NCBI RefSeq assembly: GCF_026427595.1
Contig: NZ_CP101527.1
Location: 4,025,001 to 4,089,000 of the forward strand
Length of the DNA: 64,000 nucleotides
Reading direction: 5' to 3'
Source: Alkalimarinus sediminis
Lineage (GTDB): Bacteria; Pseudomonadota; Gammaproteobacteria; Pseudomonadales; Oleiphilaceae
Part shown: piece by piece, positions 55,534-61,762 of the stretch
How the letters are laid out: each line of letters starts with the position of its first letter
How positions within the stretch are numbered: position 1 is the first letter of the stretch
Translations under genes and position numbers: made by a program
The notes under the pieces: model-generated
Databases searched by the model: none
Seen by the model: only the letters and a program-made list of their open reading frames with translations
What the model was told of the DNA's origin: nothing

Positions 55534-55649
55534 TGCCTCTATACCTGTTATGTGACCGTTGAATCTGTGCATTCTACTATGCGATAAGGCTAGCTGCACC
55601 CGATATACGACCCATCAGTCACGACAAAACCGCCCAGAGTAGTATTTAG

Positions 55650-55811
55650 TTACATTTGTACATGAAACACCAACAGACTTAAGAAGCAGACAGGACTAAT
55701 CTATAGATATTGAATTTCGAGAGACAGAATTCAGGCCCTGCCTCTCAAATGTTTTTATTTATACCTTTCTTTAACCCGACTACTCGTCGGGTTTTTTTAT
55801 GCCTGTCATTT
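55650..55811 (+). ncRNA. Candidate small RNA, copy 1, with its own terminator
   Basis: A 162-base element is repeated almost exactly at 56963-57125. The conserved core includes TCTATAGATATTGAATTTCG and GAGAGACAG/CTGCCTCTC, which forms a hairpin (one mismatch). An intrinsic terminator AACCCGAC-TACTC-GTCGGGTT plus seven Ts ends it (55773-55798). It lies between two divergent genes, so no upstream protein gene on this strand could use the terminator; an independent transcript is implied. Promoter candidates are TTGTAC/TTAAGA (17-bp gap) but weak. Confidence 0.7.
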
Positions 55812-55956
55812 ACCCATGAACTAAACTCACATTAACCCAGCAAGATGACGAGTAAAGTTCAGCAATAACGGTTACATATTATCCATCAATATGATCTGAA
55901 CCCTCAGTCACTGCGTAATACTCAACAGTAAAACTAGTCGCTCAGAGGGTACAGAT

Positions 55957-56931
55957 ATGACATTTAGCATACGCAACCTATTGTTTACGTCGGCACTAAT
56001 AGCTTTATCTCTGCCAATGCATGCAGCCAACACCGCAGAGGTTAAGATTACGCCGTTAGGCAGTATGGATGGCGAATTCTGCCAACTAGACAGAGCATTG
56101 ATCTTCGAGGATCCAGACGGCACTCGTGTACTTTACGATCCTGGCCGTACTGTAGCAGGCCCAAAAGATAAGCGCCTGGGTAAAGTAGACGCGGTATTGG
56201 TCAGCCACATGCATGGCGACCATGTCGGAGACAAGCATATTAGCGAACCCGGCAAAGGCGACTGTAAAGGCACGACCTTCCCCATTAATGCCCTCCCCAA
56301 CACTAATGCCGTCAATATTGCCCACGCAAAGGGCGCAAAAATAATCACCGGCAGCGAAATGCCTAAGTTCTTCGCCGCTAAACTAAAAGCCCTCGGTAGT
56401 GACCCCAAAAACTCCCAACTCGTGCGCTTTGGCGCCTCAACCATGATTGGTGGTATCACCATCACTACGGTTCCAGCCGTCCACTCTAATGGAATAGCGG
56501 GCGATATGATTGGAGGTGAACTTGGTGAGTTACTTAACGCTGCAGGTCTTACCGCCTATGCAGGGCCACCAACAGGTTATGTACTAACATTCTCGAATGG
56601 TTTGGTAGCCTATCTCTCAGGCGATACAGGCATCACGGCTGAACAGGAAACCGTTGTGCATGATCACTACAACGCAAAGCTAGTCGTCATTAATATTGGT
56701 GACACCTTCACCACCGGCCCTAAAGAAGCCGCGTGGGTCGTTAATGACCTTATCGAACCAGAATCAATCATCGCCTCTCATGCGAATCAACCATCGACCT
56801 TAGGAGGTAAAGTGATTGAAGGTACACGCTTGGCGCAATTTAAAGAGATGTCCAAGGCAGACGTTCATATTCCGTTGAGCGGACGCACCATGTCTTTCAA
56901 CGGTAAGGGCAAGTGTACTAACGGATGTTAG
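55957..56931 (+). CDS. Exported metallo-beta-lactamase-fold protein
   Basis: This 324-residue protein has a signal peptide (NLLFTSALIALSLPMHAA) and an MBL fold with VLVSHMHGDHVGDKHI (HxHxDH), VPAVHSNG, and SGDTG as later zinc ligands. A C-terminal His and the SGRTMSF region follow; it ends GKCTNGC. The substrate is unknown. It is framed by two copies of the candidate small RNA element, the second serving as its terminator. Nothing else in the neighbourhood points to its role. Confidence 0.87.
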   Translation: MTFSIRNLLFTSALIALSLPMHAANTAEVKITPLGSMDGEFCQLDRALIFEDPDGTRVLYDPGRTVAGPKDKRLGKVDAVLVSHMHGDHVGDKHISEPGKGDCKGTTFPINALPNTNAVNIAHAKGAKIITGSEMPKFFAAKLKALGSDPKNSQLVRFGASTMIGGITITTVPAVHSNGIAGDMIGGELGELLNAAGLTAYAGPPTGYVLTFSNGLVAYLSGDTGITAEQETVVHDHYNAKLVVINIGDTFTTGPKEAAWVVNDLIEPESIIASHANQPSTLGGKVIEGTRLAQFKEMSKADVHIPLSGRTMSFNGKGKCTNGC

Positions 56932-56962
56932 TAGTAGAACTAACACGTTTTAATGCATTTCA

Positions 56963-57125
56963 TTACATTTGTACATAAAACACCAACAGACTTAAAAGGC
57001 AGACAAGACTAATCTATAGATATTGAATTTCGAGAGACAGAATTCAGGCCCTGCCTCTCAAAAGCATTCATTTTCTACCCTTCTTTAACCCGGCTATTAG
57101 CCGGGTTTTTTTATGCCTGCCATTT
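56963..57125 (+). ncRNA. Candidate small RNA, copy 2, with its own terminator
   Basis: A second copy of the 55650 element, about 90 percent identical by eye. The terminator stem reads AACCCGGC-TATTA-GCCGGGTT: relative to copy 1 an A-U pair has become G-C on both sides, so pairing is kept while sequence changed. The loop differs freely. It lies 31 bases past the MBL stop and converges on the P-type ATPase gene, so it can also end MBL transcripts. Confidence 0.65.
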
Positions 57126-60382: not shown

Positions 60383-61762
60383 TTGAAAACCTTAATGCAC
60401 ACTCTGTTGTTATATTTCGCAACAACCCTCCCCGCTGCAGCATCAGGCGCACCTTCTGGTGAAAGTAGTTTGAACATGATGGGCTCCGGTTTAGGTATTG
60501 CTGCACTGGTAATATTTGTACTGGCTTATGGGTTGGTCATCGCTGAAGAATTTATCCATTTAAGAAAATCAAAACCCGTTATATTTGCAGCAGGGGTTAT
60601 CTGGGTTTTTGTGGGTATTCTCGCTAAGCAGGTCGAAAATGGTAACGAAATAGTTTCGGCAGCACTTGATCACAACTTATTGGAGTATGCGGCTCTATTA
60701 CTGTTCCTGCTCACGGCCATGATCTATGTAAACGCTATGACAGATAGAAACATCTTTGAGGCGCTACGATCTTGGTTGGTTCGAAAAGGCTTTAGCTACC
60801 GCAAGCTATTCTGGATCACAGGCTTTTTAGCATTCTTCATTTCCCCTATTGCCGATAACCTGACCACCGCGCTATTAATGGGTGCCGTTGTATTAGCTGT
60901 AGGCTCAGATAGGCCGAAGTTTGTAGCCGTTGCCTTTGTAAATATCGTGGTTGCCGCCAACGCCGGTGGTGCATTTAGCCCGTTTGGTGATATTACTACG
61001 TTGATGGTTTGGCAGTCTGGCCATATCGACTTTTTTGGGTTTTTCGCCCTATTTGTACCCTCTTTGGTTAACTTCTTAATCCCTGCAGCCATCATGCATT
61101 TTGCAGTACCTAATGAGACACCTCCTCCAGGGGATGAAGATGTATCTATTAAGCGTGGTGGTTTAATCATTTGTGCTTTGTTTATGTGCACAATCATCAC
61201 CGCCGTTAGCTTTGAGCAACTTCTGCACCTACCACCTTTCTTGGGTATGATGACAGGGCTTTCTTATTTATTCTTCTTCTCTTATTACATCAAAATTACC
61301 GAAAGAAATGTGTTCGACCATACTGCCGAATTCAACATCTTCAACAAAGTAGCCCGTGCCGAGTGGGATACGTTATTGTTCTTCTTTGGTGTTATTTTCT
61401 GTGTGGGTGGTTTGGGTACGATTGGTTACTTAGGTTACGTGTCACACTTTATGTATGAAGGCTGGGGGCCAACCAACGCCAACATCGTTGCAGGTTTACT
61501 CTCTGCTGTAGTCGATAACATCCCGGTAATGTTTGCAATCTTGTCTATGTCACCAGACATGGATAACTATCAGTGGTTGCTAGTTACCATGACCGCGGGC
61601 GTGGGTGGTAGCTTACTCTCAGTGGGGTCAGCTGCAGGTGTGGCTCTCATGGGACAGTCTCAAGGTATGTACACCTTCTTCAGCCATATGAAGTGGAGTT
61701 GGGCCATTGGTTTAGGCTATGCGGGTAGTATCTACACTCACTATTTGATTAATGGCGTTTAA
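60383..61762 (+). CDS. nhaD: NhaD-type Na+/H+ antiporter
   Basis: This 459-residue ion transporter has a cleavable or anchor N-terminal segment (about 3-19) and about 12 helices. Conserved stretches are SPIADNLTTALLMGAVVLAVG, NIVVAANAGGAFSPFGDITTLMVWQSG and AVVDNIPVMFAILSM, which carry the acidic and polar residues of the NhaD family. It exports Na+ in exchange for H+ in alkaline, salty conditions. The start is TTG 60383 with GAGGA six to seven bases upstream; ATG 60395 is an alternative. A strong terminator follows. Confidence 0.94.
   Translation: MKTLMHTLLLYFATTLPAAASGAPSGESSLNMMGSGLGIAALVIFVLAYGLVIAEEFIHLRKSKPVIFAAGVIWVFVGILAKQVENGNEIVSAALDHNLLEYAALLLFLLTAMIYVNAMTDRNIFEALRSWLVRKGFSYRKLFWITGFLAFFISPIADNLTTALLMGAVVLAVGSDRPKFVAVAFVNIVVAANAGGAFSPFGDITTLMVWQSGHIDFFGFFALFVPSLVNFLIPAAIMHFAVPNETPPPGDEDVSIKRGGLIICALFMCTIITAVSFEQLLHLPPFLGMMTGLSYLFFFSYYIKITERNVFDHTAEFNIFNKVARAEWDTLLFFFGVIFCVGGLGTIGYLGYVSHFMYEGWGPTNANIVAGLLSAVVDNIPVMFAILSMSPDMDNYQWLLVTMTAGVGGSLLSVGSAAGVALMGQSQGMYTFFSHMKWSWAIGLGYAGSIYTHYLINGV

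Follow-up and report, generated by a model that had tools for sequence, protein, structure and literature searches.

Two candidate sibling small RNAs flanking an MBL-fold gene in Alkalimarinus sediminis, and their probable relatives in the family Oleiphilaceae

The stretch of the Alkalimarinus sediminis genome analysed here (the window, 64,000 nucleotides) carries two similar intergenic elements, one on each side of a gene for an MBL-fold protein. The question is whether these elements are small RNA genes in their own right, regulatory leaders of the gene between them, or a repeat. A sequence-only reading of the window had taken them for a duplicated small RNA selected for its structure, and the analysis below follows that proposal through the own genome, the genus and the family.

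Two copies around one gene

The description of two similar elements flanking one MBL gene was borne out, the copies, of ~165 bases, lying at 55649-55804 and 56962-57118. When copy 1 was compared by BLAST with its own genome (4,226,946 bases), these two were the only full copies (89% identity, E=2.2e-58), and beyond copy 2 there was no match longer than about 30 bases. The similarity is thus due neither to chance nor to a dispersed repeat. The sequence-only reading had itself named many dispersed copies as the outcome that would count against it, and the genome-wide count returned two. The similarity appears as direct repeats at 55644-55760/56957-57073 (91%) and 55758-55811/57072-57125 (87%), with 56 bases of uninterrupted identity from GACTAATC to CTCAAA. 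By segment, the identity is 100% in the hairpin, 72% in the linker and 85% in the terminator, in line with the earlier remark that the middle hairpin is near-identical and the stretch before the terminator has drifted.

Copy 1 has a 2OG-Fe(II) oxygenase-like gene (PF13759; 54847..55533, - strand) on one side and the MBL-fold gene (Lactamase_B_2; 55957..56931, + strand) on the other. Copy 2 lies between the stop codon of the MBL-fold gene and a convergent gene, the product of which looks like a P-type ATPase on inspection of its sequence. The position of copy 1 between divergent genes was correctly described, but the conclusion that its terminator cannot serve a coding gene does not hold, since the terminator faces the MBL gene, which starts at 55957 on the + strand. 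Position alone therefore does not decide against a leader or attenuator; the comparison of relatives does. By themselves the original arguments, a single swapped base pair and a position that overlooked the MBL gene on the same strand, were weak. From promoter spacing and terminator, small RNAs of about 91 nt (55709..55800, + strand; +1 placed 7 nt past the -10 element) and about 92 nt (57022..57114, + strand) are predicted for copies 1 and 2, respectively.

Promoter, structure and loop

The 14 members of the alignment A6 have in common a gap-free promoter composed of GTNACA, CAACAGAC and C-TAnnnT. In copy 1 the upstream box GTTACATTTGTACAT (55649..55663, about -60 to -46) is likely to be an activator site. 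It is followed on the + strand by the CAACAGAC box (55671..55678), which overlaps the -35 position and keeps a constant spacing to both the upstream box and the -10, and by the -10 element TAATCT (55697..55702) with a C just before it. Comparison of the copies and A6 place the corresponding elements of copy 2, also on the + strand, at 56962..56976 (ATTACATTTGTACAT), 56984..56991 (CAACAGAC) and 57010..57015 (TAATCT). In the upstream box T2 and A4-C5-A6 are invariant, columns 2-6 reading T-[TA]-A-C-A, and A12 and A14 are each present in 13 of the 14 members. CAACAGAC occupies columns 23-30, with A25, A27, A29 and C30 invariant, and is separated by 17 variable, ungapped bases from [C]TAnnnT (columns 48-54). 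Within the -10 (columns 49-54) T49, A50 and T54 are invariant, the preceding C occurs in 12/14 members, and ATTGAA begins, again ungapped, at column 61.

Counting a 17-bp spacer back from the -10 (columns 49-54) puts CAGACT, a weak sigma-70 -35, at the -35 position, and the promoter looks like one of the activator-dependent type. A C ahead of the -10 is a known feature of sigma-S promoters, and here it gives a hint only of such a promoter. With up to three mismatches allowed, the only matches to the promoter box in the own genome are the two at these copies. Activator sites of the OmpR, RstA, Crp/Vfr and GacA types were compared with the promoter, and none of them suits all members.

Downstream of the promoter, the 14 aligned members consist of a 5' hairpin, a U-rich linker and an intrinsic terminator. 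In copy 1 the hairpin is placed by folds, stem covariation and loop conservation at 55719..55746 (+ strand; loop core TTCAGGCC at 55730-55737), and the terminator, with a covarying stem, at 55773..55800 (+). In copy 2 the hairpin is placed by folds and stem covariation at 57032..57059 (+; loop core TTCAGGCC at 57043-57050), and the predicted terminator at 57087..57114 (+) could end MBL transcripts too. The hairpin proposed from the letters, GAGAG-A-CAG/CTG-C-CTCTC, does fold as claimed, with an A.C mismatch, and the reported swap from A-U to G-C in the terminator was found to be exactly one pair (AACCCGAC..GTCGGGTT vs AACCCGGC..GCCGGGTT), the loops being different.

Across the alignment the evidence for structure is broader. 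Folding z-scores were between -2.4 and -4.7 in 14/14 members, each of which formed the 5' hairpin and the terminator hairpin. Standard pairs filled 89.2% of the pair cells in A6, compared to 78.9% after shuffling (reached in 0/500 shuffles) and 33-53% with slid partners; as the members are related, the significance from shuffling is overstated, while the slid control retains the relatedness. Two-sided compensatory changes numbered 26 vs 9.0 in the shuffles, and the covariation score was 0.421 compared to 0.221 in the control. Covariation was seen in 6/8 pairs of the 5' hairpin and 3/8 pairs of the terminator; within the genus, the changes in part of the stem are only one-sided or tolerated.

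The apical loop (A)UUCAGGCC is constant in the 14 members while the stem sequence varies. The stem extremes are GAGAGACAG/CUGCCUCUC in the window and UUGAGGUGC/GCACCUCAA in G154, both displaying the loop UUCAGGCC, and small loop variants occur in G4c2 (UUCAGCCC), G22 (UUCAGACC) and G21 (UUCAGGAU). UCAGG was present in the RNA part of 38/38 family elements, a count that excludes six RNA-less promoter-pattern matches from other taxa and that describes the family rather than serving as a blind test. At one locus, L147, the hairpin's own motif is UUUUUAAGGC and UCAGG sits near the terminator. There was no ORF shared across genera in the RNA part, and a small protein was rejected for this reason.

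Distribution in the genus and the family

The element was present in 5/5 genomes of the genus searched, in one or two copies each, and adjoins the oxygenase gene in four of the five. In the window's genome (G000) and in G004 the order is copy, MBL gene, copy; the other three genomes have a single copy. In G001 and G002 this copy adjoins the same oxygenase gene, the locus lacks the MBL gene, and in G002 the element precedes a convergent gene, whereas in G003 the context is different. The MBL gene thus lies outside the core unit of the RNA. The simplest history would have copy 1 as the ancestral element, with the MBL gene and copy 2 as later additions; the MBL gene, found between RNA copies in two species and missing there in two others, appears as a gene gained together with a small RNA copy. 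The overall identity was 90% between G0c1 and G0c2, 84% between G0c1 and G4c1, 82% between G0c2 and G4c2, and 88% between G0c2 and G4c1. As the two copies of the window are closer to each other than either is to its positional counterpart in G004, duplication with some gene conversion is suggested, though not settled. As a separate observation, G001 has two similar divergent NhaD-like antiporter genes near the RNA locus (L048 3204-4583, 5491-6861), where the window has one (60383-61762).

A covariance model search of relatives, which had been proposed as a check, found members in further genera of the family. The model of the RNA part (R1) placed these members, with E values from 2e-8 to 6e-6, in G022, G021, G154 and G159 and more weakly in G155; among the three copies in G159, two are separated by 205 nt. 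A second model, R2, built from the 14 members of A6 with the promoter included, matched 70/163 family genomes, about 55 of which belong to Marinobacter (genus g10). Since R2 itself contains the promoter, a promoter-only pattern was used as a cross-check; most Marinobacter genomes showed a single match, with 0 mismatches, whereas the reversed pattern gave scattered matches with up to two mismatches. At the Marinobacter loci examined, an RNA-like element with a UCAGG loop and a terminator lies downstream of the promoter and the neighbour is a REC-GGDEF gene; other genera have different neighbours.

In the Marinobacter form, about 150 nt long, a 5' domain whose hairpins repeatedly show (A)GCAGU loops lies ahead of the UUUCAGGC-loop hairpin, AACGAA-UUUUUCAGGCACU-UUCGUU, and the terminator. 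The 5' domain was seen at L112-L129, L147-L156 and L166-L186, and L147 adds GGGAG-UUAAGCAGU-CCCUC-like units. The shared promoter and the shared loop argue for homology of this form to the A6 members, which on account of the extra domain is held less firmly than the membership of the A6 sequences themselves. Tandem promoter/RNA copies 205-398 nt apart were observed in G159 (C83), G158 (C28) and the Marinobacter genomes G060, G079, G139 and G147, and the gene seems to have been duplicated repeatedly in relatives.

Beyond the family, order-wide model searches brought up terminator-like matches or PrrF-like tails but no convincing member, and the exact core hairpin had 0 matches in a collection of genome contigs that may omit the own genome. 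Promoter-like matches at L139-L142 (f8, genus g23) were excluded as members, as they have a protein gene downstream and no such RNA. The box there is one mismatch off the family pattern and is kept in four genomes upstream of the protein gene, possibly as a site of the same activator acting elsewhere.

Sibling small RNAs and the alternatives

A small RNA under structural selection is supported by the ungapped promoter of the 14 members, the excess of two-sided changes, the invariant loop and the lack of conserved neighbours or ORF. We consider it likely that the copies are sibling genes of one ~91-nt small RNA that acts in trans by pairing via its loop, probably with the help of Hfq. The comparisons support the predicted promoter, structure, loop, terminator and copy number; transcription, Hfq dependence, pairing and the direction of regulation we infer. 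An activator-dependent promoter, with boxes at about -60 and -37 and a -10 of the type C-TAnnnT, would initiate just ahead of AUUGAA, and the RNA would fold into a 5' hairpin displaying the (A)UUCAGGCC loop, a U-rich single strand and an intrinsic terminator with its U tail. The loop would pair in trans with mRNAs that have (G)GCCUGA(A) within the coding region or close to the ribosome site, assisted by Hfq, which is encoded in the genome, on the U-rich linker and the tail, and the translation or decay of the target mRNA would be altered. Recent duplication or gene conversion has probably kept the copies alike.

Sibling small RNAs are expected to have at least two related genes per genome, and such were found in G000 and G004 and as tandem pairs in G158, G159 and some Marinobacter. 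They should also have their own promoter and intrinsic terminator, which the comparison indicates here (ungapped promoter, covarying terminator), and no conserved coding frame, the ORFs of the RNA part differing between genera. An accessible conserved seed is indicated by UCAGG, which lies wholly within the predicted apical loop in 34/38 elements. Among 15 places from the matches listed, the anti-seed GGCCTGAA occurred ≤22 nt before an ATG only in coding-region or repeat matches, and there was no conserved 5'-UTR target for it. The matches at L223 and L224 are coding-region matches, in the same gene of two species according to the translations, and one match group is a dispersed palindrome. 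A dispersed palindromic repeat around GACATAAACGGCCTGAAGGTTTATGTC was observed at L218-L222 (G001, G002).

The constant loop amid variable stems would also suit a site for an RNA-binding protein, titrated by a logic like that of CsrB/CrcZ, rather than a pairing seed. The Marinobacter hairpins with recurring (A)GCAGU loops and the extra repeat units in one genome favour such titration, but the window's form has a single such loop, this loop has no GGA/CsrA-type motif, and the U-rich linker and terminator suit an Hfq-type RNA; we regard this explanation as rather unlikely. A slightly less likely variant is a protein-titrating family in which duplication tunes the number of displayed loops, by whole genes here and in relatives and by hairpin units before the UUUCAGGC hairpin in Marinobacter. 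Such a family, if real, would act as a sponge RNA of a new type, with an RNA-binding protein or an RNA as its ligand.

It is improbable that copy 1 controls the MBL gene through a regulated terminator, as an attenuator or riboswitch. Copy 1 lies on the MBL strand with its terminator about 157 nt ahead of the MBL start, and there is a weak sub-threshold Trp_leader-like score. However, the gene downstream of copy 2 is convergent, as is the next gene in G002; the downstream genes vary in kind and strand in Marinobacter and other genera, and no alternative antiterminator pairing was seen in the folds. The lack of conserved neighbour genes argues against a leader in general, and for the MBL gene in particular an attenuator or riboswitch is rejected by the elements of G001 and G002, which stand without that gene. 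A functionless old duplicated intergenic or mobile repeat, although consistent with duplication around an inserted gene and with tandem copies in several relatives, is highly improbable, as conservation already contradicts it: the genome has just two copies in 4.2 Mb, not many at unrelated loci, the element is kept in every genus genome, and promoter and structure are clearly constrained.

For the sibling small RNAs preferred here, the enterobacterial OmrA/OmrB pair, which is response-regulator-driven and shares 5' and 3' ends, offers a comparison (PMC4211561): both systems have two linked intergenic copies, an RNA of 80-90 nt, identical functional parts and a drifted remainder, and the likely activator-type promoter of the window's copies is a further resemblance. 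The two systems differ in that conservation here is highest in the 5' hairpin and its loop, and no sequence relation was detected (no Rfam match). The csRNAs of streptococci and AbcR1/2 of Rhizobiales (PMC4211561) likewise have several related copies per genome but come from other phyla or classes, again with no sequence relation (no Rfam match). The family, then, appears new and its kind known (sibling small RNAs, PMC4211561). With the tandem pair PrrF1/PrrF2 of Pseudomonas (RF00444) the elements share the broad bacterial group and a similar terminator sequence, but the score, 26.9 bits compared to a gathering score of 90, is mainly due to the terminator, and the body is different. PrrF is under Fur control; no Fur-type site was noticed at the window's copies.

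At the gathering cut-off, Rfam 15 gave no family in the window and none at the loci of seven relatives, and the best sub-threshold scores (PrrF, suhB/mmgR and rseX) were largely terminator-driven. No description of this RNA was found in the literature searched. The elements very probably represent a real RNA family missing from Rfam, which would add a conserved small RNA family, with no Rfam match and no paper found, to Marinobacter and the Oleiphilaceae. With a constant loop, a fixed promoter and one gene per genome in culturable Marinobacter, its target and its regulator would be directly testable, and its repeated duplications would offer a natural case for the evolution of sibling small RNAs.
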